NCBI GenBank assembly: GCA_030040935.1
Contig: JASHSG010000036.1
Location: forward strand, 1 to 41,972
Source: Acidobacteriaceae bacterium
GTDB taxonomy: Bacteria; Acidobacteriota; Terriglobia; Terriglobales; Acidobacteriaceae
Direction of reading: 5' to 3'
Length of the DNA stretch: 41,972 nt
The notes under the pieces were generated by a model. That model did no database searches and was not told where the DNA came from. It saw only the letters and a list, made by a program, of their open reading frames with translations. The position numbers and the translations under genes are program-made. Of the stretch, positions 8,383 through 29,856 are shown piece by piece. Positions within the stretch are counted from its first letter, which is position 1; each line of letters starts with the position of its first letter.

Positions 8383-9435
8383 ATGCAGCCCGTCACCGCA
8401 GTCGATTCCATTGCGCCTGCCATCGAGCGCACCAGGGAATTCCTCTTCAGGCCTTTCAAATGGAGCACCTATTTGAAGCTGGGGCTGGTGGCGATCATTA
8501 CTGAAGGACTGGGGGAAAACTTTCATTCGCCGCACCTGAGTCATGGTGAAGGAGGCGGCCGATTTCATGCAACGACGGCATTGCCGTCGTTCCACCCCGC
8601 CCCCGGTTCGATTGCGATTGTCGCGGCGTCTGTTGCGCTGGCAATTGTACTGTCGCTTTTTATTTTCTATCTGATCACGCGCCTGCGGTTCGCGTTTTTT
8701 TATTCGCTCGTTCACAGCGTGAAAGAGATCGGACCGGGGTGGCGGCTCTATCGAGCGCAGGCGTCGCGGTTTTTCCGGCTCAACATTGTTGTGGGAATCT
8801 GCTTCATGCTGCTGATGGCGCTGATGGCGCTTCCATTCGCAGCCGGATTCTGGCGGCTCTATCAATTGAGCCAGCAGGGCGGCCACCTGGAGATCGGACT
8901 CATGTTGGCCGTTATCTTGCCGTTGATTCCGATCGTCATTTTGCTGGCGGCCGCCTGCGTTCTGACCGATGTGATTCTGCGCGACTGGATGATGCCGCAT
9001 ATGGCGATGGACGACGCGACGGCGGGCGAAGCATGGCGGCAGGTGCGGGCGCGGATCACAGCCGAGAAGAAGCAATTCATTGTTTACGCGATCCTGCGCG
9101 TGGTTTTGCCGACGATCGCGGCGATCGGAGTGTTCCTGCTGCTCGCTCTTCCCGGGTTCATGCTGGCTGGCATTGTTGCGGCGATCGAGTTCGGTGTCTA
9201 CTCGGCGTTCTCAGGCGCGACCGGGGTATCGTGGCTGGTGGGCGTGGTTGTCGAGATATTCTTCGGCGTGGTGGCATTTGTCTTCGCGTTGTTGGCGAGC
9301 ATCTGCGTCGGTGGTCCTTTGAGCACGGGCGCCCGCGAGTATGCCCTGATCTTCTACGGCGGCCGTTACAAGACGCTCGGCGACGTTCTTTACCCGGCGC
9401 AGGCGATCGCCGGCGGATCGAGCCGGCCGGCCTGA
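8383..9435 (+). CDS. Polytopic inner-membrane protein of unknown function
   Basis: This 350-residue protein has an N-terminal amphipathic segment (ERTREFLFRPFKWSTYLKLG), a Gly/His-rich loop (about residues 45-75), and then about five to six hydrophobic helices (near 78-105, 130-158, 168-198, 228-262, 268-310). It ends in a conserved-looking short cytoplasmic tail (FYGGRYKTLGDVLYP). It resembles uncharacterised integral-membrane families common in Acidobacteriota, with no catalytic motif visible. The start is supported by AAAGGA 5-6 nt upstream of the ATG. It follows trmFO by 51 nt and precedes another envelope protein on the same strand. Function is not assigned. Confidence 0.75.
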   Translation: MQPVTAVDSIAPAIERTREFLFRPFKWSTYLKLGLVAIITEGLGENFHSPHLSHGEGGGRFHATTALPSFHPAPGSIAIVAASVALAIVLSLFIFYLITRLRFAFFYSLVHSVKEIGPGWRLYRAQASRFFRLNIVVGICFMLLMALMALPFAAGFWRLYQLSQQGGHLEIGLMLAVILPLIPIVILLAAACVLTDVILRDWMMPHMAMDDATAGEAWRQVRARITAEKKQFIVYAILRVVLPTIAAIGVFLLLALPGFMLAGIVAAIEFGVYSAFSGATGVSWLVGVVVEIFFGVVAFVFALLASICVGGPLSTGAREYALIFYGGRYKTLGDVLYPAQAIAGGSSRPA

Positions 9436-9555
9436 CGCGACCCCGAGAACACGACCTGGAACCTTTTCGCTTCCTCCCGTGTCGAAGAGAAGGAGCGTCA
9501 GCGACGCGGCCAGCGGCGCGTGAACGTGTACCCTGAAGGCTGGGGAAGCCGGCGA

Positions 9556-10785
9556 ATGAAGTGGAAGTTGATGACACGGAAGGCCATGCTTTTTGCGGGG
9601 CTCGCGTGTTGCGCGGTTCAGGCGCTTGGGCAGGGCGAGCAGCCAACGGAGGCAGAGAAGAAATCTGCGACGACGATCGTTCTGCCGCCCTCGCCAAAGG
9701 CGCTCCTACCTGACAGCTTCGACGGCTGGGTGACGACGGGACCATCCAAGGTCGTGACCGACGCGGTCGAGGTTGATCCGGCCAACGCGGCAGCCCTCAA
9801 AGAGTATGGGTTTAATGCCGCGGCGGTGGCCGACTACAAGCGCGAGAGCGAAACGCTCGGCATGCGCGCGCTGCGTTTCGATGACGCCAGCGGGGCTTAC
9901 GGCGCGTACACCTACTATCGCCAAAATGGCTGGCCCAGAGAAGAGATCGGGACGGGAGCGGCCTCGGACCACAATCGCGTTCTATTTTGGCAAGGGACGA
10001 CCGTGGTGGATGCGACGTTTTCGCGGATCGGACCGATGACGGCTGGAGAACTGCGCGAGATCGCGCACCAGCTTCCCGTGCCGACCGGAAACCGGGCGAT
10101 GATCCCGCCCATCCTCGCGAACCTTCCCAAAGCTCAACTGGACGGGCAGACGACGCACTACGCGGAGGGGCCGGCCGGCTACGCCGGATCGGGGGGTGTG
10201 CTGCCGCCGTCGCTGGTGGATTTCGACAAGGGCGCCGAAACGGTGACGGCCAATTACTCACTGACTTCAGGAGCGGCGACTTTGACCATCATTGACTACC
10301 CGACGCCACAGATCGCAGAGGCGCAGGAGGCGGCCATTCGCGCGTATCTGAAGGCCGGCAGCCAGGCGCAGCCGCCGTGGCCGAAGCCTTTGACCGACTC
10401 CGACCAGGCATCGCTGGAGGTGCGCCACAGTGGGCCCCTGGTGGCGTTGGTGAGCGGCGACGCGGTTCCCGACGACAGTCATCGGCTGCTCGAGTCAGTT
10501 CACTTCGAAGCCAGCTTGACGGGGATTCCGCAGCCTGTGGAATCAGAGGTGGAGAAGACCAGCAGGCTGCTGTTGGGGATTGCTGTGCTGACGTTGATCG
10601 GGGCGACCGCGGCAGTCGTGCTGGGAGGGTTCCTGGGCGGTGGGAGAGCCCTTTATCGCATGGCGCGCGGCAAACCGATCTCGTCGGTCTACGACGAGGA
10701 GTTTATTCATCTCGATTTGGCTGAGAAATGGGACGAAAGAATCGAAGTGGTTGAGGTCATTGAGAGACCGAATCCGGAAGGTTAA
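9556..10785 (+). CDS. Exported protein with one C-terminal transmembrane helix (DUF6599-like), function unknown
   Basis: This 409-residue protein has a signal peptide (MLFAGLACCAVQALGQ), an exported domain with the pattern LLPDSFDGWVTTG, LKEYGFNAAAVADYKRE, ASGAYGAYTYYR, and a hydrophobic helix near residues 337-362 (LLLGIAVLTLIGATAAVVLG). A short acidic cytoplasmic tail follows. This looks like the acidobacterial DUF6599 family, recalled from memory rather than searched. The start at 9556 is the first ATG that gives a normal signal peptide; a GTG at 9520 and an ATG at 9571 are alternatives, and no strong ribosome site discriminates. It may form an envelope unit with the preceding membrane protein (120-nt gap). 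Its biochemical role is unknown. Confidence 0.7.
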   Translation: MKWKLMTRKAMLFAGLACCAVQALGQGEQPTEAEKKSATTIVLPPSPKALLPDSFDGWVTTGPSKVVTDAVEVDPANAAALKEYGFNAAAVADYKRESETLGMRALRFDDASGAYGAYTYYRQNGWPREEIGTGAASDHNRVLFWQGTTVVDATFSRIGPMTAGELREIAHQLPVPTGNRAMIPPILANLPKAQLDGQTTHYAEGPAGYAGSGGVLPPSLVDFDKGAETVTANYSLTSGAATLTIIDYPTPQIAEAQEAAIRAYLKAGSQAQPPWPKPLTDSDQASLEVRHSGPLVALVSGDAVPDDSHRLLESVHFEASLTGIPQPVESEVEKTSRLLLGIAVLTLIGATAAVVLGGFLGGGRALYRMARGKPISSVYDEEFIHLDLAEKWDERIEVVEVIERPNPEG

Positions 10786-10959
10786 CGCTGCTCGGTCTCT
10801 GTGGAAAAAGGGACGCAAACCCGAAGAAACACTACGAAATCACGGGAAATGCCGGAGGATTTGAGGCGAATAATCAGCGAATAAAAGAACCCTCTGCGGC
10901 GCAGCGTTTTATTGTTAAAACATTGAAACACCAACACTTATTTTAACAAACATTTTCTC

Positions 10960-10988
10960 TTGACACTGCCTCCCCCCGCTCCTAGTAT
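10960..10988 (+). promoter_or_regulatory. Strong housekeeping-type promoter (TTGACA-17-TAGTAT)
   Basis: A perfect TTGACA at 10960-10965 is followed by 17 bp and TAGTAT at 10983-10988. An AT-rich stretch lies just upstream (10905-10960) and could act as an UP element. This is the best-matched promoter seen in the window. It is not followed by a credible protein gene but by a short structured sequence with a terminator. Confidence 0.8.
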
Positions 10989-10994
10989 GCAGCC

Positions 10995-11080
10995 AGAAAG
11001 TTCTGATGGGTTTGGCTCCGTTGGAACTATTCTCCCTGAGGAGAGAGCTGCCCTGTTGCCGGGCGGCTCTTTCCGTTTTT
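10995..11080 (+). ncRNA. Candidate small RNA gene (about 85 nt), unassigned
   Basis: Starting about 7 nt after the promoter -10 box, the sequence can form stem 1 (AGTTCT 10999-11004 with GGAACT 11023-11028), a small hairpin TCTCC/GGAGA (11031-11044) and a terminator-like stem (11042-11053 with 11061-11072). The last ends in a T-rich tail CCGTTTTT. The middle hairpin and the terminator share bases 11042-11044. No start codon with ribosome site follows on this strand, so this is a free-standing unit rather than an obvious leader. It does not match tmRNA, RNase P, SRP or 6S RNA as I know them. It could belong to a described acidobacterial RNA motif that I cannot identify without a search. Confidence 0.55.
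11042..11080 (+). terminator. Terminator of the candidate small RNA
   Basis: A 12-bp stem with two wobbles (AGAGAGCTGCCC / GGGCGGCTCTTT) and a 7-nt loop is followed by CCG and five T. The gap between stem and T-run makes it slightly imperfect. Confidence 0.6.
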
Positions 11081-11603: not shown

Positions 11604-11679
11604 GCCGACGTAGCTCAGTTGGTAGAGCAGCTGATTCGTAATCAGCAGGTCGTCAGTTCAAGTCTGACCGTCGGCTCCA
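11604..11679 (+). tRNA. tRNA-Thr (anticodon CGU)
   Basis: A standard 76-nt tRNA including an encoded CCA. The acceptor stem is GCCGACG/CGTCGGC. The D arm contains AGTTGGTAGA. The anticodon stem GCTGA/TCAGC encloses the loop TTCGTAA, giving anticodon CGU for ACG codons. The T arm contains AGTTCAAGT. No integrase or att duplication was seen next to it. Confidence 0.96.
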
Positions 11680-11778: not shown

Positions 11779-14700
11779 TCAGTCGGGCACAACAAACAAG
11801 GTGATGGATTGCGCTGGGAACGTATAGTTGCCAATGGTACTCGTTGTGCTGCCTGCCGCGGGAGGCGTGACGCTGACGGCGGCCTCTTGCACGATTGCGG
11901 TCAGATTGGCATTGCTGTACTGGTACACCTGCGCGTTCGTGCCGGCCGTTGAAGTGAAGTTTTCCACGCTGATACTCGAGGTAAGTGAACCATAGGTCTT
12001 GTTGATGACGATCACGGTAATGGCGTTGTCGGAAGTTCGCTGTGCGCCGAAGACCGCGAGCTGCCCCTCGCCGTTGCCGGTTGATGCCGTGCTGGTTGCG
12101 TAAAGATATGTGTTGCCAAAGGTCGAGTCGTTCCCGTCGTAGTTGCGGTACATGGCAAAGGCGTAGTTCCCGGGACCCTGAGAACTGTAATTCGTAGTCG
12201 GCCAAAAGGCGCCCATACCCAGATTCTGACGCCCGAAGATTCCGAGTATGTCGGCCTGCACGACCGCGCCGTTGATCGATTCCAGGCCGCCGAAGTTGTA
12301 TTCGTCGATCGAGGTTTTCGTGCCCGGGTAATCGTTGGCGACCCACGTTTGCAGCATGGGAATCACTTGCGGAGCCTGTGCCGGCACGGTGCAACTGGAG
12401 GTGTAGTCCGGGTCGGTAATGTAGTTCGGCTGCTGATAACCGCCGTATGCCGGGGCTACAAAATTATCGGGGTCCTTATAGGTCGAGTCCCAGAAGACGC
12501 GCGTTCCATTCATGCGCTCGATTTGCTCCTGGGTGTCACCCGCCGTCGTAAAGGCCACTGAGTTGCCGCTGTTGACCGGATACTGGGGCGCAAAATAGCT
12601 GTGGACGTCAACATAATCGAGCAGCCGGATGCCATACTGCTGCGAATAGCTGTTGAATTGCTGCAGGTAGTACTCGATCATGGGCACGCCGCCGTGGGCC
12701 TCGCGGTCGATGGGATTACTCCATGGCTGGTAACACGGTCCTGAACTCCATCCGCTTTCGATGTCCTTCTTGGAATAAAAGTAGGCCCACCAGTAGTCAA
12801 TGACCGGCCCGCTGACCAGGGCTGTGGGATCGGCGGTCTTGATGGCCAAGGCAGTGCCAATTCCATTGTTGGTCACCTCATCGTAAGTGAAAGCGACCGG
12901 ATGGACATCACGATGCACTGCATCCCACCAGGTGGGCTCATTGTCGAGATCCCAGATGGCTACTCCATTGCCACTGGCGCCGCTGCCATATCCGGTCACG
13001 ATCGAGTTGACCCAGGCGCCCGGCCAGGTCCCATCGGCCCAGGTTCCTGTGACAGAGCCGGGGGCAGGCGCGCTCAAAATGCTCGGCGGGGCCTCCTGGG
13101 TGCTGGTGATTGCAGCAATCGTGTTGCTGCCGTACAGATCACAGCCGCCCGAAGATGAGCAACCGTTGGTCCCATCGGGATCAATACCGTCGCCGCAACT
13201 CCCGTTGTAGCTCTCCTGGCCCGGATAAGCTGTCTTGGTGAAGCTGCAGGCCCCGGAAACGCCGTTCGAAACCCAACCGAGCACCGGCACTGTGCCCAAG
13301 GCGGCGGATCCTGCTGCATCGACGGCTGGAAAGAACTGCGTGAAATTCTCACCGGTTCCGGAGTTGGGGAACATGAAGGCGGCGCCGTCGCCGTTTTCAA
13401 AGTAATAGTCCGAGGCGGAATTGGTCCATCCGTTTTGGTAGTTGTAGCGCGACGTGTCGTCGCCGCCCCAGCGCAGAATACCGGGATTGGCAACCTTTTC
13501 CGAGGCCGGATCCAGATCGTACGCATTCATCCCATAGACGTAGGGGCTGATGGTGTGCGGGTTTTCATTGGGGTTCGATGGCGTGCCTAGATCCACGGCC
13601 AGGGCCGGTCCGGCTGCCGTGACCGGTGGGCTCAACGTGACGGTCGCGCTGCCGCTTACGTTTGTGAATCCGGTCATCGTACTCGTGGCTGTAACGGTGA
13701 CGGTCGCCGGAGCCGGATACGGCGTGTTGTAAAGCCCCGCAGAACTGATGTCGCCCGGGCTCAGCGAGCTCCCAGTGGGAGCGGCCACCGACCAGGTGAC
13801 CCCGTCGCTGTAGCTGCCAGTGCCCTGCACCGTGGCCGTGAATTGCTGCTGCGTGCCAATGGTCGCTGTGGTGGGTGTCACGATAATCGAAGTAATTCCC
13901 GGCTGGTTGTAGTTCGCCGTTACCGTCGTATTTGCGCTGATGGTTAGATTGCAGACGGAGCCGCTCGATCCGCTCGTTGATGCGCATCCGCTCCAGGAGA
14001 CAAATGAATAAGTGTTATCGGTGAGAGCAGCGCTCAGTGCTATCTGCGTGCCACCGTAGTACGACAGCGTGAACGGCGTTGAACCGCCCGTCTTTGCGCT
14101 GTTGTCTGCCGGACTCGCAGTGATCGAAATGCCGCTCGAGGGTCCTGCCGAATCCACCGTCAGTATGTAGGCGGCAGGCGTGTTTACCGTTACCGATCCC
14201 AAACCGGTGGCGCTGGTGTACGTGGATGAACTCGCAGCGTCAGGTGTGTAGCTTCCGGTCAACTCATCCGTTCCGGTGGCCAGTGAGCTCGCCGGAATAT
14301 TGATCTGAGCGCTGCCGTTCACGAGTACAGTCGCGGACGGAGTGTCGTATCCGCCGCCGCTCAGCGTCACCGAGCCGGTCGGCGTGGGGGCGCCGGCGCC
14401 GCCGCTCACGGCGACCGTCACAGCCAATGGCTGATTCTCAGCGATGCTCGAAGCACCCGGAGTGACCGTCACAGTGGGAGTTGCCGGGTTCACCGTTACG
14501 CTCACCGAGCCCGTCACGATGTTGTAGTCGGTCGAGTCGGTGGGCGTAAAGGTCACGCTCTCGCCAGGTGTTCCGCCGCTGGGCACGATGGTGGATGTAG
14601 TCCATGCAAACGCTCCGGGTACTGACGCCATTCCGCCGCTCAATGTCGAAGATGCCAGCGTCTGGCCGTAAGTGATCGCGCTCGCCGCAGGCCACGCCGA

Positions 14701-15270
14701 CACCACCGGCGTAGCTTTGTTCACCGTCACACTCGCCGAGCCCACCACCGCGTTGTAATCCGTGGTGTCGGCGGGCGTGAAGGTCACGCTCTCGCTCGGA
14801 GTTCCGGCGCCGGGGGCCGTGGCGGGTGTCGTAAAGGCAAAGGTGCCCGCCGTTGACGCTGTTCCGCCGCTCAGTGTCGAAGATGCCAGCGTCTGGCCGT
14901 AGGTGATCGCGCTCGCCGCAGGCCACGCCGACACCGTCGGCATCGCCTTGTTCACGATCAGGCTCACCGAACCCACCACCGCGTTGTAATTGGCCGCGTC
15001 GGCGGGAGTGAAGGTCACACTCTCGCTGGGGGTCCCAGCGCCAGGCGCCGTTGCGGGCGTCGTCCAGGCAAACGTGCCGGATACCGATGCCGTGCCGCCG
15101 CTGAGTGTGGACGAAGCCAGCGTCTGGCCATAGGTGATTGCGCTGGCCGAAGGCCAAACAGAAACCGTCGGCGTGGTGATGGAAGCTGTGCCTCCGCCGC
15201 CGCATGCAGTGACCCATAGCAATGCCAGAAAACTCGACCAAAGCGCCGCTCGCCTTCTCTTCACGCTCAT
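11779..15270 (-). CDS. Secreted lipoprotein: Ig-like stalk plus GH44 glycoside hydrolase
   Basis: This 1163-residue protein begins with a lipoprotein signal (VTAC, Cys23). Three 77-residue MBG/Ig-like repeats follow at 34-264, then an Ig-like domain (265-363), an InlB-B-like segment with SWSGC (about 367-455), another Ig-like domain (about 459-547), the catalytic domain (about 556-1060) and a C-terminal beta-sandwich. The catalytic part matches GH44, which cuts beta-1,4-glucans and xyloglucan: LRWGGDDTSRYNYQNGW, the acid/base in WDLDNEPTWW (Glu778), DYVDVHSYF, and the nucleophile in SIDEYNF (Glu990). The start at 15270 is supported by AGAAGGA upstream and by the signal sequence. The likely location is the cell surface or periplasm, tethered by lipid with the repeats as a spacer. 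Substrate within GH44 is inferred from the family only. Confidence 0.9.
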   Translation of the reverse strand: MSVKRRRAALWSSFLALLWVTACGGGGTASITTPTVSVWPSASAITYGQTLASSTLSGGTASVSGTFAWTTPATAPGAGTPSESVTFTPADAANYNAVVGSVSLIVNKAMPTVSAWPAASAITYGQTLASSTLSGGTASTAGTFAFTTPATAPGAGTPSESVTFTPADTTDYNAVVGSASVTVNKATPVVSAWPAASAITYGQTLASSTLSGGMASVPGAFAWTTSTIVPSGGTPGESVTFTPTDSTDYNIVTGSVSVTVNPATPTVTVTPGASSIAENQPLAVTVAVSGGAGAPTPTGSVTLSGGGYDTPSATVLVNGSAQINIPASSLATGTDELTGSYTPDAASSSTYTSATGLGSVTVNTPAAYILTVDSAGPSSGISITASPADNSAKTGGSTPFTLSYYGGTQIALSAALTDNTYSFVSWSGCASTSGSSGSVCNLTISANTTVTANYNQPGITSIIVTPTTATIGTQQQFTATVQGTGSYSDGVTWSVAAPTGSSLSPGDISSAGLYNTPYPAPATVTVTATSTMTGFTNVSGSATVTLSPPVTAAGPALAVDLGTPSNPNENPHTISPYVYGMNAYDLDPASEKVANPGILRWGGDDTSRYNYQNGWTNSASDYYFENGDGAAFMFPNSGTGENFTQFFPAVDAAGSAALGTVPVLGWVSNGVSGACSFTKTAYPGQESYNGSCGDGIDPDGTNGCSSSGGCDLYGSNTIAAITSTQEAPPSILSAPAPGSVTGTWADGTWPGAWVNSIVTGYGSGASGNGVAIWDLDNEPTWWDAVHRDVHPVAFTYDEVTNNGIGTALAIKTADPTALVSGPVIDYWWAYFYSKKDIESGWSSGPCYQPWSNPIDREAHGGVPMIEYYLQQFNSYSQQYGIRLLDYVDVHSYFAPQYPVNSGNSVAFTTAGDTQEQIERMNGTRVFWDSTYKDPDNFVAPAYGGYQQPNYITDPDYTSSCTVPAQAPQVIPMLQTWVANDYPGTKTSIDEYNFGGLESINGAVVQADILGIFGRQNLGMGAFWPTTNYSSQGPGNYAFAMYRNYDGNDSTFGNTYLYATSTASTGNGEGQLAVFGAQRTSDNAITVIVINKTYGSLTSSISVENFTSTAGTNAQVYQYSNANLTAIVQEAAVSVTPPAAGSTTSTIGNYTFPAQSITLFVVPD
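14479..15171 (-). repeat. Three 231-bp tandem repeats (77-aa MBG/Ig-like modules) in the GH44 gene
   Basis: Residues 34-110, 111-187 and 188-264 of the GH44 protein are near-identical units with the pattern SAWP-ASAITYGQTLASS, SGGTAS, PSESVTFTP and DYN. The DNA period is exactly 231 bp. The same three-unit array occurs in the GH30 gene at 34688-35380. Confidence 0.9.
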
Positions 15271-15776
15271 TTTTGTCAGTCCTTCTCTCGTAATCGGCGC
15301 CCGGTTTTGCTTCTCTAGCCCCGGCCGAATTCTTTCCCCGGCCGCTCTGGCTGAATGCCGTACTGACGCGTCATCGCGCATGTGGCACAATCGGGCTTAA
15401 ACATGCTTGTCGTGCTTCTTGCCGAGGCTATGGATGTATAGTCGGACGGAATCCGGCTGGCATTCGTTAGAAATCAAGCCCAAGCCGATCTCGTTCCCGG
15501 TGCGCTTGCAAATACCTTGAATCAGCATCTTTTCGACGGCAGGCCCATTTTATGACTGGCTTGGTCGAACGCGAAACCATATGAGTTACGAAAGGCACAT
15601 GCGCGGAAAGCATGAGACCGGATCAGGAATCCTCGTAAGCCGCTCGACCATGCGCAAGGCGCCGTGCTTTTGAGGGAACGGAACCTGGATACCATCAATC
15701 GACTCACCCCGGGCCAACTTCATATCCGGCATAGTCCCTGCTTCAGGTTTGACTTTACGCATCAGAATTCAAGATC
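15271..15776. other. Intergenic region, no gene seen
   Basis: About 500 bp between the GH44 start and the terminator of the next minus-strand gene. It should contain the GH44 promoter, but I found no convincing pair of boxes. The short open frames lack ribosome sites. Confidence 0.5.
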
Positions 15777-15835: not shown

Positions 15836-16087
15836 TTACTGTTCGACGAACACCGAGATCGGCACCGTCTGGGTAACTCCGCCGCCAGTGGCCGTAATCG
15901 TCACGACGGTGTTGGTGCCCTTCGGCGGGGCCGGCGGTCCGTTATAGGCGCCGCAGCCGGAAAGCTGAATGGCCCCGATCACACCCGCGATCAGCACCAG
16001 AGCCAACATCAGACCGCGCCGTTTCTTCCAGCCAAAGAAGCACAGAGCAATTGCGAACGTTGCTCCAGCCGGGAGGAACGGGTTGGA
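15836..16087 (-). other. C-terminal helix-KKRR-helix-lipobox-tail module (copy A)
   Basis: These are the last 83 residues of the 1475-aa protein. Helix 1 is LPAGATFAIALCFFGW, followed by KKRR. Helix 2 is LMLALVLIAGVIGAI, ending in QLSGC with the Cys codon at 15953-15955. A 38-residue tail then ends VPISVFVEQ. It is the most divergent of three copies in the window. Confidence 0.7.
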
Positions 16088-19000
16088 ACGGTGTTGGAGA
16101 GACGCCGTGTTGCTGTCGGTGATCGTCAGGATAGTGCTGGTGGTCCCCGGCGGCGTTATGGTTGCGGGGTTGAAGACGAAGGTCACGCCTGACGGCGCAC
16201 CGCTGCTCGTGAAGGTGATGGGCACTGTGAATGCGGGGTTCGGCACGATCGTGATCGTGACGGTAGCAGAACTACCGGGCCCCACGGTTACTGAGGGTTG
16301 AGCCCCGATGGTGAAGTCAGGCGGTATCACCTGGAGGGTGTAGGTTGAGGCTCCACTCGCGCTGGGCGTATAACCCGCCAGCGTGGCAACAGCCGTGACG
16401 GTCACCGTGGCTGGATAGGTTTCAGCCGTGAGGGTAATGGCGCCCGCGTAAGTCTTGGCGGTTGAGCTGGTCAGCGGATTCGAGCCGTCCGTGGTGTAGA
16501 GGATGGCAGCGCCGGACGTAGAATCCGTGATGGTCGCGGTGTTCGACGTCCCGATGATCAGCGTGCTTCCGGTAGCTGGGCTGATTACCGGTGTTGCCAC
16601 TTGACCCAGCGGAGTTACAGCGACGGACCCCATGACCTGAGTCGCCGCCGCGTAATCGGCGTTGCCTGCCTGGTTAGCGTCGACCACGATGGTTCCCAGA
16701 CCGGTGGCGGTGAGAGTGCTACCGCTCAACGATCCGGCGCCCGCAGTGCTGGAGGCATCGAGTGTGAAGGTAACCGGGTTGCCGGACGCACCGCCGGTTG
16801 CCGACAGAGTTTCCGCCTTGCCGTAGCCGAGCGGAGTTGTCGGATTGAAGGTAATGGTCTGAGCGGCCTGGTTGACGACGATGGTACCGGTCACCGCGCC
16901 CGCAGCCAGGTAGTTAGCATTTCCAGCCTGACTCGCCGCGATCATGATTGTGCCGACTCCCGTAATGGTCAGGGTCGCGTTGTTCGTGCCGCTGAGGGTG
17001 CCAGGTCCGGACGTGAGAGAGAAGGTGACCGGATTGCCAGATCCACCACCGGACGCGCTCAGCGTGATCGGAGTGGTGCTGTAAGACACCGGTGAGGTCG
17101 GTTTGAAGGTGATCGTCTGCGGGGCCTGGGTGACGTCAATCGTGATCTGCACCTGAGGCGCGGCGGCATAGATCGGTGTGCCCGTCGTGGTGCCCGCCTG
17201 GTTGGCGTCGATGATCAGGGTACCCGCACCGGTGATGGTCAGGGTTGTCCCGTTGGTGCCGCTTACTGCCCCAACGCCCGCGGTACTTCCAGCGTCAACA
17301 CTGAACACGACCGGATTGCCGGAAGCGCCGCCGGTTGCCGACAACGTGTACGGGCCGCCGCCAAAGACGACCGGCGAAGTGATGCCGGCGAAGTCGGTGA
17401 TGGCCTGTGCGGTCGCGGCGCTGCCACTGACGGCGAAACCGCTGCCAGTGCTTCCGTTCACCGTGTCGTCCACGGTCAACGTGGATGAGACAGCGCCCGA
17501 AGCAGAGGCGGTGGGCGTGAAGGTGATGGTTGTCGGCAAGGATGAACCGCCGCCGAAGGTCAAGGCATCGCATCCGGCGGGCGCGGTCAAGGCGCCGGTG
17601 AACTCCGTGTCTCCGGAGGTGATGGTCAGCACCGGCGGATTGGTGCAGCCAAAGTCATCGAGCACCCAGACGTTGGTGGCCGTGGTTGGGGCCGCCGAAG
17701 AAGCCTGGCCAAGCACCGTCACCGAGCCAATGGCATTGAACGCCATCGTGTCGCTGCCGTTGTTGTAGCCGGCATAGTAGAAGTTGCCCTTGGTGTCAGA
17801 GGCGATCACCTTGGCGCCCGGTGCCGCGAGAGCAATCGGATTGGCCCATTCAAGGGTTCCTGAGTTGTTCAGGATTTCGTAGATGCCGGTGTACTGATCG
17901 GCAAAATACACATTGTTCTTTGAATCGATCGAAACCGCATCGATCTCGTTGTTGTACTTGCAAGGCGCCGCGGTGCAGACCGGTGTTTCGGTCTCGAGCA
18001 GCGTGGGAGCGGCCGCATAGCCCGTCGTCACCCCATTGAAGCCTGCGCTGGTGCTGGTTTTCAGCTCCTGCAGGTCAGAAGAGTGGCTGTAGGATGAGCC
18101 GCCTACGTCGATCAGGGAGTCGGTGAAGAATACATTGTCATTGGAATCGATGGAGATGGCGCCGACATAATACTGATCTGAAGCCGCATCGGAAGGAACC
18201 GTTTCGGCGTAGAGCAGGATCGGAGCCGTCGGCGTCGCACCGTAGAGGCAAGTCGGACCGCACTCAAGGATGGAGTACGGCTGGTTTGTAACGGTCGTCG
18301 AAGGCGACTCGTCGCTGGTGGTGATGAAGAGATTGCCATTCTTGTCGAAGTTAATGCCTGCGATACCAAAGGCAATCGTCCCATTGCCGACCACGATCTG
18401 GCAGATTCCCGCGTTGTCGGGCGCTACTCCATCGCCTTTGCAGGTGGGAGCGGCGGTGACTTGCGCGGCCGTGAAAGTGGGATAGGCTCCGCTGATAACG
18501 GGGAGCTTGATGATGGTATTGCCATATTCGTTTCCGGCGTAGGCATAGCCCGAGCTGTCAATGGCAACGGCGCCGACGCCGTTCAATGGCCCCAGATTCG
18601 CAACCACGGTGCCCGTGGAGGTGAACTGCTGGAGATCATTGCCATACGAGCTGCCTGCGAGGACGGCGCCCAACGTGGAGTTCAAGGCCATGGTGCCGCT
18701 ATCGGACGCATCCGCGCCGAAGACGCCGCCGCCCGTGAATGCCGCACCCCAGGTGTTCTGGCTAACCGAGGAGATGCTTCCGGCCTTGGCGATCACTGAA
18801 GACGAATCGCCCGACGCGGTGTCGTTCACCGTGAAACCGGTATAGGGCGTGACTCCGGTTGTCGGGGTGTAGGTGACAGTGACCGGGAACTCAGCAGCGG
18901 TTCCCAGAGATGATGAGCCGCAGGTACCCGCGCTGGCTGCAAATGGCGGATCCGGGACGGTGAACGTCAAAACGGCCGTGGAGCAAGGATCCGAGTTGTC

Positions 19001-20263
19001 CGCCACAAGAACCGTCGCCGTTGTTGCGGTTCCCGGGAACGACGGGCCGTCGAGCGATACATAGCCGACCGTGTCGGCGCCGCTGGTGTTAACTACGGTG
19101 GAGTAGCCCTCCACGTAGAAGTTGCCGTAGGTGTCTTTCTGCAGCAACTTCGTGCCCTGGTTGCTGATTGCGTAGATGCCTGCGGCGGTGGCTCCGGTTT
19201 TGCTGTTTGGGATACCGTAAATACCGGAGTTATCGAGGCCGATGTACACCTTGCCGTCCGATGGCGTTGGGTCGGCATATACCGCATCAATCTGATCGTC
19301 ATAGTTGCCGGGAGATGCGATAGTCAGGGTTTCGACCACTGTTGGCGCTGCCGTGAAACCAGTGGTTACGCCGTTGAATCCCGAGTTCGCAGTCGTGTCG
19401 ACGAGCATCTCGTTCAGGTGGGAGTCGATACTCTTGTTGCTGGTGTTGGCCAGAGCAGAATCGGTGAAGAAGAGGTTGCCCCAGGGGTCGATGGACATGC
19501 CGCCGACATAGAGCTGGCCGGTGGTACCCGGTGTGCTGGCGATGGGCTCCGCGTAGATAAGGACAGGGGCCGCGGTCGAGCCCGAAGCGGGATAAAGGCA
19601 CTTGGTCCCCGCCGCTTTGCACTCAAAAATTGAATAGGCCGGACCCACGCCGCCGGAATCACCCTGGTCGTCGGTGGCGAAGAACAGATCGTTGGCCGCG
19701 TCGAAGGTCATCGATTCCACACCGAAATAGCCGAGGGTCGATGATCCGAGTGATTTGATGATGCACTCTCCCGCGGTCTTGTCGGTGGCGGCCACGCCCG
19801 TGCAGGCGGGCAGCGCGCTGCCGCCAGAGCCGCTCGGATCGACGGTGTAGGTATAGGTTCCGTTGGTGTTCATCGGAATCTTTGCTACCACATTGGTAAA
19901 CTGGCCCGCCACATACAGAAAGTTATTGCTGTCAATGGCGACTGCGCCCGCGTTGGCGAAGGGTCCAACAACCGAGACCGCATAGCCGGGGCCGCTGAAC
20001 TGAATGATGTTGCCGCCATAGGTCTCGCTGGCCACGATAACGCCCATCGAGTTGATGCCCCAGGAGCCGCCCGCAGGAACGTCCCCTGCTAGAGCACCGC
20101 CATTCGGATAGGCCGTAAACCAAGTACTCTGGCTGACGATAATAGGGGCTGACGAGGCCGCGTTCGCGGCAGTCGCGAACAGGAAGATGGCCAGGATCGC
20201 GAGCAAAGCTACCACCGCGCCCCGCGACGCGTAACGCTCAAATTCCTTCAACTTCGTTTCCAT
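15836..20263 (-). CDS. Giant exported beta-propeller/Ig-like protein with C-terminal double-helix-lipobox module
   Basis: This 1475-residue protein starts with a long signal segment (AILAIFLFATAANA). Two related ~450-residue propeller-like copies follow (about 41-490 and 497-950; compare FNGVTTGFTAAPTVVETLT and FNGVTTGYAAAPTLLETET), with NHL-type strands such as GAVAIDSNNFLYVAG. Next come three MBG/Ig-like repeats (QTITFNPTTPLGYG type), a chitobiase-C-terminal-like domain (ATPVISPATGS, ILYTTDGSNP) and one more Ig-like domain. The last 83 residues form helix, KKRR, helix, LSGC, then a beta-rich tail. The start at 20263 is set by GGAGG upstream. No enzyme motif is seen. The likely role is surface binding or adhesion, inferred from architecture and the neighbouring glycosidases and receptor. 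Confidence 0.82.
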   Translation of the reverse strand: METKLKEFERYASRGAVVALLAILAIFLFATAANAASSAPIIVSQSTWFTAYPNGGALAGDVPAGGSWGINSMGVIVASETYGGNIIQFSGPGYAVSVVGPFANAGAVAIDSNNFLYVAGQFTNVVAKIPMNTNGTYTYTVDPSGSGGSALPACTGVAATDKTAGECIIKSLGSSTLGYFGVESMTFDAANDLFFATDDQGDSGGVGPAYSIFECKAAGTKCLYPASGSTAAPVLIYAEPIASTPGTTGQLYVGGMSIDPWGNLFFTDSALANTSNKSIDSHLNEMLVDTTANSGFNGVTTGFTAAPTVVETLTIASPGNYDDQIDAVYADPTPSDGKVYIGLDNSGIYGIPNSKTGATAAGIYAISNQGTKLLQKDTYGNFYVEGYSTVVNTSGADTVGYVSLDGPSFPGTATTATVLVADNSDPCSTAVLTFTVPDPPFAASAGTCGSSSLGTAAEFPVTVTYTPTTGVTPYTGFTVNDTASGDSSSVIAKAGSISSVSQNTWGAAFTGGGVFGADASDSGTMALNSTLGAVLAGSSYGNDLQQFTSTGTVVANLGPLNGVGAVAIDSSGYAYAGNEYGNTIIKLPVISGAYPTFTAAQVTAAPTCKGDGVAPDNAGICQIVVGNGTIAFGIAGINFDKNGNLFITTSDESPSTTVTNQPYSILECGPTCLYGATPTAPILLYAETVPSDAASDQYYVGAISIDSNDNVFFTDSLIDVGGSSYSHSSDLQELKTSTSAGFNGVTTGYAAAPTLLETETPVCTAAPCKYNNEIDAVSIDSKNNVYFADQYTGIYEILNNSGTLEWANPIALAAPGAKVIASDTKGNFYYAGYNNGSDTMAFNAIGSVTVLGQASSAAPTTATNVWVLDDFGCTNPPVLTITSGDTEFTGALTAPAGCDALTFGGGSSLPTTITFTPTASASGAVSSTLTVDDTVNGSTGSGFAVSGSAATAQAITDFAGITSPVVFGGGPYTLSATGGASGNPVVFSVDAGSTAGVGAVSGTNGTTLTITGAGTLIIDANQAGTTTGTPIYAAAPQVQITIDVTQAPQTITFKPTSPVSYSTTPITLSASGGGSGNPVTFSLTSGPGTLSGTNNATLTITGVGTIMIAASQAGNANYLAAGAVTGTIVVNQAAQTITFNPTTPLGYGKAETLSATGGASGNPVTFTLDASSTAGAGSLSGSTLTATGLGTIVVDANQAGNADYAAATQVMGSVAVTPLGQVATPVISPATGSTLIIGTSNTATITDSTSGAAILYTTDGSNPLTSSTAKTYAGAITLTAETYPATVTVTAVATLAGYTPSASGASTYTLQVIPPDFTIGAQPSVTVGPGSSATVTITIVPNPAFTVPITFTSSGAPSGVTFVFNPATITPPGTTSTILTITDSNTASLQHRSNPFLPAGATFAIALCFFGWKKRRGLMLALVLIAGVIGAIQLSGCGAYNGPPAPPKGTNTVVTITATGGGVTQTVPISVFVEQ
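17414..20143 (-). repeat. Internal duplication of a ~450-residue propeller-like unit
   Basis: Residues 41-490 (nt 18794-20143) and 497-950 (nt 17414-18775) share the order SQ-TW, GG(N/D)-QF, GAVAIDS, GFNGVTTG(F/Y)-AAPT, E-T, (Q/E)IDAV, GIY-I and an Ig-like segment ending in VDDT or VNDT. The copies are clearly related but diverged, so the duplication is old. Confidence 0.7.
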
Positions 20264-21484
20264 CACAAATCCTCCGGTGAAATGTCGTTTCAGATATGGG
20301 GGAACAGCAGTAGCGTTCCGCACGTTGACTCGATTCCTTGTCCTTACTCCCGATCCTTCCAGTAATGAGAAGGTTTGTGGCCTGACCCGGTGGACTCGGG
20401 AGTCCCAATTCCCCTGGGCTGAATCTTCAGCAAAATGTCATTACGAATAAGCCCATCCTCCTTGCGCGCCCAGTTCCGCTCCGTGAAAGTGATACGAGGA
20501 AACTTCAAACCTCATTGATCGCCCTAACATCGGCCCGCCTCTCCCTCCGACGATTTGCGCCGCTTCCGGGCAAAGCACCGATCAGGCAAGTTGGGTTCGG
20601 AGGCGCGGTTACCCACGCAGAACCGTGTCTGTTACCGCTCCCAGAGCGAGTCCGAGTATATTCGCAGCACACACCGATATTGGCGACCCCAGAACTACTG
20701 AAAGAAATGCGGAATTATATTCATACTCAAAAAGGCGGTTGTCAAGAGAATTCACGCAGTGGATTTCTCGCGATAGAAGCGGGCCGAGCCGGGAGTAAAT
20801 CGATTCCGGGCGAGAAGCGGCATCGCCCAGGGCCGGCAAACATCTTCCGGAACGTGGGGAGAAAGGCAACCCGACCGGAAAGGCCTTTTGACTTTGGCCA
20901 CCCCTGTCCAACCGCAGTTTGCGCTGGCGTAACCGCCGTGATGGTATCGCGACCGCTATACACAGCCCGGTTGTGCCGGCCGCCAGACTCGGTTCCGGCC
21001 TGGAGCGGCAGAAATTCAACGAATTCAGACAGGTTCATCGAAATAAACGATTAAGCACGGGGATAAAGAGCGACCATTTCCGTCCCGCAGGTTGACGCGC
21101 CCGTCGAGTGCGAAGCTTTTTGAATGGTTCCGGTCCCGGCGTTCCGGTAGTAACGGAGATGCATGAAGAGGTTAGCCTCAGGCTCTCGACGCGGATCCCG
21201 AAACTTCCCGGAAAAGCCAATCCAAAGCCGCAATGCCGATCGATCTTGATTTCCTTATCAGAGACTTTCTTCCGAGGATGGACGCGCCGGGGGAAATGGC
21301 GCGAGCTTTTCATTCGCTCCGCGCACGTTGCGCTGACTCACAGAGGTCACACGAAAGAGCGTGGCCGCGGCGAGGCGAATAAATGTGGCTAATGAAACTA
21401 AATCAATTTAATTCAGGCCATAATAGAATTCCAGACTTCCCGATATTGTGGCCAAAAGCGGTGCGCGAGATTCATAATTACCGC
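20264..21484. other. Long intergenic region between divergent genes, no gene called
   Basis: This region of about 1.2 kb (1.37 kb gene to gene) lies between the minus-strand propeller/Ig gene and the plus-strand TonB-dependent receptor. Several overlapping open frames of 60-180 codons exist, but their translations are low-complexity and none has a ribosome site, so none is called. An AT-rich patch near 20700-20745 holds promoter-like boxes for the minus strand, and AT-rich DNA near 21380-21540 holds one for the plus strand. GC-rich inverted segments at 20860-20990 could be structured RNA but match no riboswitch that I recognise. Confidence 0.5.
20714..20745 (-). promoter_or_regulatory. Candidate promoter toward the propeller/Ig gene
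   Basis: On the minus strand perfect TTGACA (20740-20745) and perfect TATAAT (20714-20719) occur, but with a 20-bp spacer, longer than the optimum of 17. If active, it would give a leader of about 440 nt before the ATG at 20263. Confidence 0.35.
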
Positions 21485-21514
21485 TTGACTATTCTCCACA
21501 GGGAGCCCCATAAT
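21485..21514 (+). promoter_or_regulatory. Candidate promoter of the TonB-dependent receptor
   Basis: TTGACT (21485-21490) and CATAAT (21509-21514) are spaced 18 bp, in AT-rich DNA. They lie about 125 bp before the receptor ATG, which implies a leader of about 118 nt. Confidence 0.5.
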
Positions 21515-21638: not shown

Positions 21639-24600
21639 ATGAAGTCTTTTCCTGGATTCAAGCAGGCGTCCGCATGTTTGGGGCTGTTTCTCGCGGTGCT
21701 GCTGTTGTGGCAAATACCCGCCCAGGCACAGGAGACCACAGGCAGCGTATCGGGCGTTGTTCAGGATACGACAGGCGCGGTGATACCGAACGCTGTGGTG
21801 ACAGTCGTCGACCTGACCAACCAGTCGGAACGCAAGACCGTCAGCAATGGCACCGGAGAATTCGCCATCAACTCGATTCCGGCCGGGCTGCGTTATCAGG
21901 TGCGGGTGGAGATGAAGAACTTTTCACCGTGGCAGTCGCAGCCTTTTCCACTGCGGCCCGGCGATCGCGTGACTTTCACCGACATCCGCATGCAGGTGGC
22001 TCAGGCCGCTGAACAGATTACGGTCGAGGCGGCCAATACCCAATCGCTCAAGCCGCTGGATACGCCCGAGCGCAGCGATGTGATCACCGCCGAGGATCTG
22101 GACACGCTCGCCATCGTGGGCCGCGATGCCACGGAGCTGATTGAGATGCTGCCGGGGTTCGCAATGATCAGCAACCAAGTCAATAACCAGGCGCCAAATA
22201 CGGCTGTTTCGGGTTTGAGTGGTCCCACCGGCTCGTACTCTGCCAACGGCGCCGGGCCCACCGGACTGGCGACGGTGATGGATGGCGTCTCCATTCAGGA
22301 CATCGATACGAATGCCGGGACCGTGCAGCAGGTCAACTCCGACATGATCCAGGAGATCAAGGCCACGACGTCGACGTTCAGCGCCGAATACGCCAAGGGG
22401 CCGGCCGTGCTGAACGCAACCACCAAGGCAGGCACCTCCGCCTACCACGGCGAGGCCTACATGTATGCCCGCGATACGGTGTTCAACGCCAACGACTGGT
22501 ACAACAACTATCTGCAGCAGACGCGGCCCCCGGGCCGATATCTCTTTCCCGGCGGTCAGGTAGGTGGTCCGCTGTGGATTCCGGGCACTCAGTTCGGTCC
22601 GCACAACAGCAAGCTTTTCTTTTTCGCTGGCTATGAATATTACAACCAGAATTTCTGGTCGCAGACGCTCGGTTCGTGGGTACCCACCATGTCGGAGCGC
22701 AGTGGCGACTTCAGCGCAGCGTCATTGAATTCCGAACTGTGCGGCGCTCGTCCCGACGGCGGAGTGAACCTGGATGCCGTTTTGCCCATGTGTTATGCGG
22801 ATAACTACCTGCCTGGCGGGCAAACTGTGGCGGATGGCAACGTGAACGCATATGCCAATCCGAGCGGCGTGGCTCTGGTAAATTGGCTGCCGCTGCCGAA
22901 TGCCAATCCCTTCGTCAACGAGCAGGGTTACAACTATGTTCAGCAGGTGATCCAAACCCAGAATGGCACACAGTTTCACGCCCGCGTCGATTTCAACCTG
23001 AGCGACTACAACAAGTTCTATGCCACCTATGGCCGTCAGGCACAGATCACCGACGAGCCGGTTGCATGGGGATACGCGCCAAACAACTCAATGTTGTATC
23101 CCGGCCAGGTCACCTCGGGCGATATTTCGAACATATTCTCCCTCCATTATGTGCGGATCTTCGGCAGCAGCGTGACCAATGAAGCCAGTGCCTCGATGTC
23201 CTTTATCAGCGACCCGGCCAACATGGGCAACCCCACCGCTGTGAGCCGGTTCCACATGAACGACTACAACTGCAACAATGTGGCTGAGCGGGCGGCGGGG
23301 ACTTGTAACAATCCCGCCAGCGACAATTTCAACTATCTGGGCGAATACAAGAATAACTACGATTACTCAGTACCGGCGCTGTCGGACTACGGCTCTTTGG
23401 GCTATCCCAACATGCTGATGCCGGGCGGTTTCTACAACGACCAGGTCAAGATGAAGAAGGTCGTGCCTACCCTGGCCGATACAGTGAACTGGGTGAAGGG
23501 ACCGCACAGTCTCGCCTTTGGCTTATATGCCGAGCGGGGCATTCTCAACGGCGATGCAGACTACGCTGCCGCGTTCCCACAGGGAGAATACGACTTCACT
23601 CCAGGCAATGGATACTACGAGTACAACGGAACTCAGGGGTTGTCGTTCTACAACAGCAACTACATAGGCTGCGAAAATCCGGATCCGAACGGCACCAGCC
23701 GTCTGTCGGGCGCGGCGTATTTCGGCAGCTGCATCAATCCTGTGGCCATGATGTACATGGGCTACGCAGATTCCTTCACCCAGACGAACTTTTCGCCGAT
23801 CGTGGACATGCAGTACACCACGTTGTCTGGATTCGTGAACGACGCCTGGAAGCTTCACCGGCTCACATTGATGCTTGGCGGCCGTTTGGAACACCTTGGA
23901 CCATGGTTCGACCGCCATGGCAATGGCTTGGCTACCTTTTCTCCCTTCCTCTACAACAGCCAGTGCACGGGCCGCGACTGCAGCAGCGAGGCTCTGCCGG
24001 GAATCACATGGTACAAGGTCAATCTCGGCGTCCTGAACTCAGTGAATAAGCCGGCGTTGCTAGATTTCAGCCCGCGCGTGGGCGCCTCGTGGGATCTGTT
24101 CGGGACCAGCAAGACGGTGCTTCGCGGTGGATGGGGAATGTATCGCAACCAGGAGCCGTTTTCACCTTATGCGCTGGCGGCCGCCAGTGCCCAGGGTTAC
24201 AAAACGAGCCAGTCGCTCGGAATCCTGAGTTTCGATCTGGTCGACAACCAATCGCCCATCAATCCTCCCGATATCAACGTCTACACGCTTTCCAGCACCG
24301 ATAAGGTTCGCCCCCTCTATTACCAATTCAATGTGACCGTGGACCAGCGCCTGATGTGGAATTCGCTGATGGAGGTTGCCTACGTCGGTAGCGAGAACAC
24401 CAACCTGCCTACCTATAATCTGGGAGCCAGCGGGTACAACGGCGCATCCGACCTAAACGTGCTTCCCCTGGGCGCGTATTTCCAGCCCAGTTTCTCCATT
24501 TCCAATCTGCCGGCCTCGATCATCGAGCCCAATACGGGCGGTGACCTGAGCACCCTGACCACGGCGGAACAGGACTTCTACAGGACATATCCGTTCTACC

Positions 24601-25580
24601 AGCACATCTATTCGCTGAAACACGATTACTATTCGAATTACAACAGCCTGCAAGTGAGCTGGAACAAATCCACCGGCTTCGTGAGTTGGGGCGCGAACTA
24701 CACCTTCTCGAAGGACCTGGCCACGGCCGCGTCCTACAACAACGAACTGGCGGATCCCCTGAATCTGCGCAACGATTACAACCCGGCGCCGTTCGATCGC
24801 AGCCAGGTCTTCAACATCCACTATCTTGTCAACTTTGGACGCCGTTATACGGGCAGCAGCGCCCTCTTGTCCAAAGTCGTGAACGGTTGGCAGGTCTCCG
24901 GCATTTCTACCGTGCAGAGCGGCCCCGACCTGACTTCGGAGGAGGGCGAGAACTTCTCCTTTGGGTATGGAAATATTCAGGCAACTCAGCTCTATTTGCC
25001 ACAACAGGTCAATAGTCCAGGTCAATCCGCAAAGACCTGCGCAAACGTCTATGACATTTCGCCGGACAAGAACGGAAACACGTATTGCGTGACCAACATG
25101 AATCCGGTGGTTTGGCTGGGGACGCCGGATTATCTGTTGATGCCGACACTAAACTGCAACCCGTCGGGCGGAAGCGCGAAGAATCAGTTCATCCACGCGA
25201 CCTGCTTTGGGCTCCCGCTGCCGGGCAGCCCCACGACGGGCAATTATGCGCTCTCGGCGAATCCCAGCGGGCAGGGGCAGTACCGGCTTCCGTACATCCA
25301 CGGTCCCGCCTTCTCAAACCACAATGTGACGCTGATCAAGGACTTTTCGATGCGAGAAAGCCGAACCCTGGAATTCAAAGCCTCGGCGTTCAATTTCCTC
25401 AACCACCCGCTGGTTTCATTCAACAACAACGACAATTCGAATTTGAATCTCGGCAACCTGCTGGGAGCGGTTCCAGGCCAGGCTCTGACCGAGGCAATGC
25501 TGGGGCATAAGGATTTCGGAATTGCCAATGTGAAATACGGCTCGCGCCTGCTGGAATTCAGCGCAAAGTATTCGTTTTAG
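21639..25580 (+). CDS. TonB-dependent receptor, Oar-like, with N-terminal carboxypeptidase-regulatory-like domain
   Basis: This 1313-residue outer-membrane protein has a signal peptide (cleavage near AQA30-Q31) and a carboxypeptidase-regulatory-like domain at about 33-115 (GSVSGVVQDTTGAVIPNAVV). The plug follows at about 135-260 (GRDATELIEMLPGFAM, VMDGVSIQDIDT), then a very long beta-barrel ending in Phe (LLEFSAKYSF), as outer-membrane proteins do for BAM recognition. Such receptors take up oligosaccharides or siderophores using TonB energy, and acidobacterial genomes carry many. The start is supported by GGGGGG about 7-12 nt upstream. It heads a plus-strand series with two giant NHL/Ig genes. 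The ligand cannot be read, but flanking GH44, GH30 and GH2 enzymes point to plant polysaccharide fragments. No SusD-like gene is adjacent. Confidence 0.9.
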   Translation: MKSFPGFKQASACLGLFLAVLLLWQIPAQAQETTGSVSGVVQDTTGAVIPNAVVTVVDLTNQSERKTVSNGTGEFAINSIPAGLRYQVRVEMKNFSPWQSQPFPLRPGDRVTFTDIRMQVAQAAEQITVEAANTQSLKPLDTPERSDVITAEDLDTLAIVGRDATELIEMLPGFAMISNQVNNQAPNTAVSGLSGPTGSYSANGAGPTGLATVMDGVSIQDIDTNAGTVQQVNSDMIQEIKATTSTFSAEYAKGPAVLNATTKAGTSAYHGEAYMYARDTVFNANDWYNNYLQQTRPPGRYLFPGGQVGGPLWIPGTQFGPHNSKLFFFAGYEYYNQNFWSQTLGSWVPTMSERSGDFSAASLNSELCGARPDGGVNLDAVLPMCYADNYLPGGQTVADGNVNAYANPSGVALVNWLPLPNANPFVNEQGYNYVQQVIQTQNGTQFHARVDFNLSDYNKFYATYGRQAQITDEPVAWGYAPNNSMLYPGQVTSGDISNIFSLHYVRIFGSSVTNEASASMSFISDPANMGNPTAVSRFHMNDYNCNNVAERAAGTCNNPASDNFNYLGEYKNNYDYSVPALSDYGSLGYPNMLMPGGFYNDQVKMKKVVPTLADTVNWVKGPHSLAFGLYAERGILNGDADYAAAFPQGEYDFTPGNGYYEYNGTQGLSFYNSNYIGCENPDPNGTSRLSGAAYFGSCINPVAMMYMGYADSFTQTNFSPIVDMQYTTLSGFVNDAWKLHRLTLMLGGRLEHLGPWFDRHGNGLATFSPFLYNSQCTGRDCSSEALPGITWYKVNLGVLNSVNKPALLDFSPRVGASWDLFGTSKTVLRGGWGMYRNQEPFSPYALAAASAQGYKTSQSLGILSFDLVDNQSPINPPDINVYTLSSTDKVRPLYYQFNVTVDQRLMWNSLMEVAYVGSENTNLPTYNLGASGYNGASDLNVLPLGAYFQPSFSISNLPASIIEPNTGGDLSTLTTAEQDFYRTYPFYQHIYSLKHDYYSNYNSLQVSWNKSTGFVSWGANYTFSKDLATAASYNNELADPLNLRNDYNPAPFDRSQVFNIHYLVNFGRRYTGSSALLSKVVNGWQVSGISTVQSGPDLTSEEGENFSFGYGNIQATQLYLPQQVNSPGQSAKTCANVYDISPDKNGNTYCVTNMNPVVWLGTPDYLLMPTLNCNPSGGSAKNQFIHATCFGLPLPGSPTTGNYALSANPSGQGQYRLPYIHGPAFSNHNVTLIKDFSMRESRTLEFKASAFNFLNHPLVSFNNNDNSNLNLGNLLGAVPGQALTEAMLGHKDFGIANVKYGSRLLEFSAKYSF

Positions 25581-25766
25581 GTAGTCGCACCTGGTCCGGT
25601 GCGCCGCACGCCGGATCGCGTTTTGAAGCAGCTCCATCGCGGCGGGAATCGGGCCGGTTGTTTGGGATACGATAATGCCGCGCTCCGGAAGGGACGACTG
25701 CAAGATGCGGGCAGGCGGCTGGGCCGTTTGCAGCAATTCTGAATGAGATTGTTCGTGGAGAGTGTC

Positions 25767-29780: not shown

Positions 29781-29856
29781 GCAGGAGATGCAGGTTTTCA
29801 TGCCGCGGTTTTACACAACGAGCAAGGTTGGTATGAGTCTTCCAGGGAGAAATATC

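Follow-up and report, generated by a model that had tools for sequence, protein, structure and literature searches.

Trans-encoded type I antitoxins are RNAs that hold down a very small protein (PMC8309996), and C-rich small RNAs are known from Firmicutes, where they include RsaE/RoxS (PMC4409812, PMC8216469). Candidate noncoding RNAs from Acidobacteria include Acido-1 (RF01686) and Acido-Lenti-1 (RF01687), both listed as non-cis-regulatory (PMC2864571). Here, we report from comparative sequence analysis a small RNA (sRNA) gene of an Acidobacteriaceae bacterium and its predicted target, the mRNA of a Lys/Ala-rich micropeptide. Acidobacteriota are among the most abundant soil phyla.

The sRNA lies in a 41,972-nucleotide stretch of DNA (the window). 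Features of the locus, in window coordinates, are as follows.

9520..10785, + strand: DUF6599 gene (PF20244, 421 aa; Pfam E value, 3.4e-25), the conserved upstream neighbor of the sRNA.
10960..10988, + strand: sigma-70-type promoter TTGACA-17-TAGTAT (TTGACA, 10960-10965; 17-nt spacer; TAGTAT, 10983-10988), 10/12 consensus, with an AT-rich stretch upstream (~10915-10959).
10995..11080, + strand: small RNA, ~86 nt, with ends inferred from the -10 box (5') and the T run (3').
10995..11033, + strand: hairpin 1, AGAAAGUUCUGAUGG / CCGUUGGAAC-U-A-UUCU, whose bulged A (window 11029) is A35 of the sRNA.
11027..11037, + strand: seed/linker CUAUUCUCCCU, which complements AGGGAGAAUAG at the ribosome-binding site of the micropeptide gene.
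11040..11080, + strand: terminator hairpin and T run (14-pair stem at 11040-11074, then GTTTTT).
11604..11679, + strand: tRNA-Thr(CGT) (ARAGORN), a frequent downstream neighbor of the sRNA.

Like antitoxins of the IstR-1/tisB type, the sRNA is separately encoded with its own promoter and terminator, belongs to a conserved chromosomal pair, and pairs (here in silico) with an mRNA for a very small protein, in its 5' region. Unlike that type, the predicted pairing covers the Shine-Dalgarno sequence itself, and the peptide (12 to 24 aa) is polycationic and Lys/Ala-rich rather than a hydrophobic membrane peptide; type I toxins are small, hydrophobic, and usually membrane proteins, and these micropeptides are ~80% Lys plus Ala, without a hydrophobic stretch. 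With RsaE/RoxS, the sRNA shares an exposed C-rich motif (CUCCC) aimed at Shine-Dalgarno sequences; the resemblance is confined to that motif, the phylum is different, there is no covariance-model match, and one dominant conserved target was found in place of a metabolic regulon. Since the peptide is not hydrophobic and Rfam gave no match, the sRNA belongs, by the tests made, to neither the type I antitoxins nor RsaE/RoxS. The composition of the target peptide, with AKKAPAKK-type repeats, is like that of bacterial histone H1-like K/A-rich proteins (Hc2/HctB, AlgP), from which it differs in its length of only 12 to 24 residues and in the lack of a Pfam match for the short form.

An earlier reading of the DNA (here called the sequence-only reading) had left it between a new small RNA and a described acidobacterial motif. 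The second option found no support, as the Acido-1 and Acido-Lenti-1 models match neither the window nor 20 divergent homologous loci, even at an E value of ≤5. The first agrees with the covariance search: against Rfam 15, the window gave no match at gathering score, its weak matches (E value, ≤5) included no bacterial family, and among the 20 divergent loci, no family was found at the RNA above chance. A divergent 6S RNA (RF00013) was ruled out, because in this genome the 6S model matches on a different contig (C158). In the open-access literature searched, no paper describes the sRNA or DUF6599 or gives any Acidobacteriota sRNA a target, and Acidobacteria are absent from the main text of genome-wide RNA discovery papers; these negatives support the novelty of the sRNA without proving it.

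The sequence-only reading had called the promoter the best of the window; its 10/12 score held, and it is joint best of the 42 kb, tied with TTGACT-18-CATAAT at 21485. The terminator-like hairpin with a T-tail is present as described, and the first clear feature downstream of it is the tRNA at 11604, with no protein gene starting nearby. Folding of positions 10993-11080 gave -43.7 kcal/mol versus -26.6 ± 3.2 kcal/mol for shuffled sequences (z, -5.4; 0/200 equally stable). Three stems had been proposed, of which hairpin 1 and the terminator appear in the minimum-energy fold, whereas the third (TTCTCC/GGAGAG), though it can be drawn, lacks conservation. The window sRNA has a covariance model hit of 95.6 bits. 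In a model-fitted alignment of 68 diverse sequences, 98.5% of cells were paired and 15 of 28 pairs (79 cells) carried double compensatory changes, a level reached by none of 500 shuffles and destroyed when the partner was slid by one to three columns. An unfitted alignment of 71 sequences still held 9 pairs with double changes (0/500 shuffles as good). Hairpin 1 (98.0% of cells paired) has compensatory double changes in 6 pairs, and the terminator stem has double changes in 9 of its 13. By contrast, the mutually exclusive second hairpin, which had been suggested as a possible switch against the terminator, was not supported: across the 71 sequences, 72.5% of its cells were paired, no more than in slid registers, with zero double changes. 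What stands is the central claim of a free-standing ~85-nt RNA behind a strong promoter, with its own promoter, a stable fold, and conserved stems.

A BLAST search recovered the element, including its promoter, at 85 to 95% identity in 32 of 35 same-genus genomes, with one further copy interrupted by an assembly gap. Within the genus, the transcript is nearly invariant, and the spacer and the regions upstream of the promoter and after the terminator diverge. A gapped pattern run over a named genome collection gave at least 118 matches; among the matches listed, all records were Acidobacteriota (Acidobacteriaceae, Granulicella, Edaphobacter, Terracidiphilus, Acidicapsa, "Ca. Sulfotelmatobacter," and others). 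Because such a pattern fixes two motifs, covariance models were built instead. Model R1 found the sRNA in 71 of the 74 genomes sampled from the window's family; across 396 genomes of the phylum, it gave nothing convincing outside that family. A second model (R2), whose training set included divergent members, added two families of the same class (f7 and f8), and homologues in five more (f2 to f6) were placed by synteny and promoter. In these other Terriglobia families, the same position downstream of DUF6599 carries a promoter of the TTGAC(A) type as well as a short hairpin, a stretch of the UUCUCC type, and a terminator, followed at some loci by tRNA-Thr. Two copies per assembly were seen in G015 (L012/L035) and G003 (L014/L036), which could be true paralogues or mixed bins.

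DUF6599 lies directly upstream on the same strand at 114 of 131 unique near loci and at 41 of 46 divergent loci, a synteny that independently confirms the distant members. Of the five divergent exceptions, four (L228, L229, L232, and L233; 30 to 36 bits) were rejected as chance model matches, being without DUF6599 upstream and matching in the terminator part only. Downstream, tRNA-Thr(CGT) follows on the same strand at 78 of the 143 loci with enough sequence; otherwise, the genes vary in family and strand, which argues against a leader. Conservation of promoter and stems in relatives, the check proposed with the sequence-only reading, came out decisively in its favor: TTGACA and a -10 box are retained in all 129 unique copies, and the stems are kept with compensatory changes. 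The promoter, the covarying terminator stem, and the lack of downstream gene conservation are the marks of an independent gene; those of a riboswitch or attenuator (a downstream gene and mutually exclusive structures, both conserved) were not found. As judged from these comparisons, positions 10960-11080 are a real, previously uncatalogued sRNA gene of the class Terriglobia.

The linker CUAUUCUCCCU, which is exposed and varies very little, forms a perfect complement to AGGGAGAAUAG, the ribosome-binding site of a gene for a Lys/Ala-rich micropeptide of 12 to 24 residues (MATKKAAKKAPAKKAAKKK...). In six same-genus genomes, the linker complement AGGGAGAATA occurs at 31 sites, six of which belong to the sRNA genes; among the rest, a single gene was matched in all six genomes, always at the ribosome-binding site, in the context ...AGGGAGAATAGGcaaATGGCAACCAAG..., encoding MATKKAAKKAPAKKAAKKAAKKK or close variants. 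The same-genus target gene carries a TTGACA/TATAC promoter of its own, along with an inverted repeat resembling a terminator. In the genome studied, the target lies outside the window (contig C120:12079-12088; peptide, MATKKAKKPAKKAKKPAKKAAKKK). A search on coding starts only, used to avoid conditioning retrieval on the complement, found the exact complement in 12 of 14 K/A-rich open reading frames (ORFs) of ≤30 residues, 2 to 7 nt before the ATG, and in 0 of 1,641 other start-codon windows. The two without it are second copies (L319 in G142 and L325 in G672; MATKKKAKKKKH and MATKKKAAKKKKKK), and the same genomes hold another copy with the complement.

Family-wide, GGGAGAAYAG within 12 nt of ATGGC was found in 62 of 74 genomes, versus 5 hits for a reversed control pattern. 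This pattern, by which most target genes were retrieved, forces 9 of 10 complementary bases, so that the unbiased evidence consists of the C/T position and the 12/14 retrieval only. A standard linker together with a short K/A-rich product was confirmed in 58 family genomes (pattern matches minus non-peptide ORFs, plus three same-genus genomes). With the few patterns searched, the exact short target was absent from 14 sampled sRNA-bearing genomes of the family (9/9 of genus g24, 3/4 of genus g22, G306, and G081). Cofolding pairs CUAUUCUCCCU with AGGGAGAAUAG at exactly the predicted bases (-93.6 versus -72.2 kcal/mol apart); if duplex energy is the sole criterion, 0.8% of other start windows pair equally well. 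Target pairing requires the opening of four linker bases that take part in the foot of hairpin 1, and the predicted fold of the target 5' untranslated region has two hairpins that leave the Shine-Dalgarno sequence free. A second contact, between the loop (UUUGCC) and the target (GGCAAA), was set aside as a suggestion only, as the target bases vary elsewhere and the genome studied has UUUGGC / GGAAAA.

The two partners covary at the one variable position of the pairing: sRNA A35 occurs with target U in 55/55 genomes and G35 with target C in 3/3, with no exception among the 58. The three G-C genomes (G408, G415, and G635) are placed apart in a maximum-likelihood tree of one gene, DUF6599, on which the sRNA label requires three changes, as does the target label, with at least two forced by well-supported branches. 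Genus g22 has changed its linker to CUGCCUCCCAUAG, and in one of its members (G683), CUAUGaGAGGC, one mismatch from the new complement, precedes two K/A-rich ORFs. The base after CCCU pairs with the base before AGGG in 38 of 58 genomes, a weak signal that follows lineage. No target match was found in two genomes in which the sRNA locus is missing (G655) or decayed (G617), and G170 keeps the target without the sRNA where its contig ends shortly after DUF6599. In genus g225, only a decayed sRNA locus or none stands between DUF6599 and tRNA-Thr (L238 in G617 and L244 in G655).

Close pairs of micropeptide genes differ 204, 95, and 1,125 times at codon positions 1, 2, and 3, respectively, with 952 synonymous and 249 replacement codon differences; this bias and synonymous excess indicate that the micropeptide is real and under coding selection. 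Pfam gave no match for the short micropeptide, and a longer K/A-rich paralogue has a sub-threshold HC2 match (E value, 0.021). Because the composition is like that of histone H1-like tails, our guess by analogy is that the micropeptide most likely binds DNA, RNA, or polyphosphate and is perhaps harmful in excess. Longer Lys/Ala-rich paralogues (48 to 130 aa, MATKKASKKSATKKSPAKKTTAKK...) were also seen (L320, L350, L331, L340, and L341, in genomes G282, G237, G107, and G683), and their start regions are partly complementary to the sRNA linker (e.g., CAGGGAGAAGTAGTT in g24), which suggests that the sRNA may have a wider regulon of H1-like proteins. Gene calling with a length cutoff usually misses peptides of 12 to 24 residues, and the present finding exposes a conserved Lys/Ala family of them.

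We propose that the RNA is a trans-acting base-pairing sRNA that blocks translation of the polycationic micropeptide. Transcription would run from its own housekeeping-type promoter to a terminator that it carries itself. Through the pyrimidine-rich linker at the base of hairpin 1, the sRNA would pair over 10 to 11 bp with the Shine-Dalgarno region, and ribosome binding would be blocked, so that the histone-tail-like micropeptide is kept off. Pairing of sRNAs over the Shine-Dalgarno sequence is an established block to initiation for many sRNAs, and such a block would be the natural outcome here, because the predicted pairing covers the Shine-Dalgarno sequence and stops a few bases before the ATG. 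Hfq (PF17209) is encoded in 21/21 genomes, including the one studied, and the sRNA is possibly Hfq dependent. We give this reading a probability of roughly 0.8; promoter, structure, conservation, complementarity, coevolution, and coding selection on the peptide were computed, and we infer transcription, repression rather than activation, help by Hfq, and the action of the peptide. A class-wide sRNA gene thus comes with a specific predicted target, in a pairing backed by coevolution over about three separate changes, and that coevolution makes the mechanism testable by a one-base swap. Tentatively, the two genes could form a new kind of chromosomal RNA-antitoxin-like pair in Acidobacteriota, in which the class-wide sRNA mainly restrains a polycationic, histone-tail-like micropeptide that, when released (for example, in dormancy or starvation), would condense nucleic acid or polyphosphate or be toxic.

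Translational block of the micropeptide has one competitor with some claim, although we regard it as unlikely: the micropeptide mRNA could be a sponge that titrates the sRNA, the real regulon being other mRNAs with GGGAGAA-type Shine-Dalgarno sequences. The linker's UUCUCC is generically anti-Shine-Dalgarno (GGGAGAA occurs in 15/1,641 other start windows), C-rich sRNAs are known to have RNA sponges (RoxS, PMC8216469), and the short target mRNA has a promoter-like site of its own (TTGAC...TATA) in 36 of 37 target genes with enough upstream sequence. Strong coding selection on the micropeptide ORF speaks against a mere sponge, as does the full 10-mer, which in all six same-genus genomes lies at the ribosome-binding site of this gene only; a sponge would, moreover, be compatible with repression of the micropeptide. 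Less probable still is an RNA that acts through a protein by binding or sequestering it, with incidental complementarity to the micropeptide mRNA; both strands of lower hairpin 1 are indeed nearly invariant, beyond the needs of pairing alone, but this would leave the A35/G35 and g22 coevolution and the 12/14 coding-only retrieval unexplained, and the polymerase-binding 6S RNA sits elsewhere in the genome. A cis-acting leader or attenuator, suggested by a terminator hairpin after a structured region and by the alternative hairpin that can be drawn in the window to compete with it for control of a downstream gene, has practically no probability, since that hairpin is not conserved, whereas hairpin 1 and the terminator are, and the downstream genes differ between loci, which together point to a free-standing trans-acting RNA.

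Elsewhere in the window, a DUF7544 protein of unknown function (8383-9435, + strand) adjoins DUF6599, and a 1,203-aa protein (11779-15390, - strand) combines Ig-like repeats with a glycoside hydrolase family 44 domain. Clustered at 15836-20323 (- strand), 25743-29726 (+ strand), and 29788-34185 (+ strand) are the genes for three very large proteins, rich in repeats and probably secreted, and amid them lies a 1,313-aa ORF (21639-25580) that is outer-membrane receptor-like.
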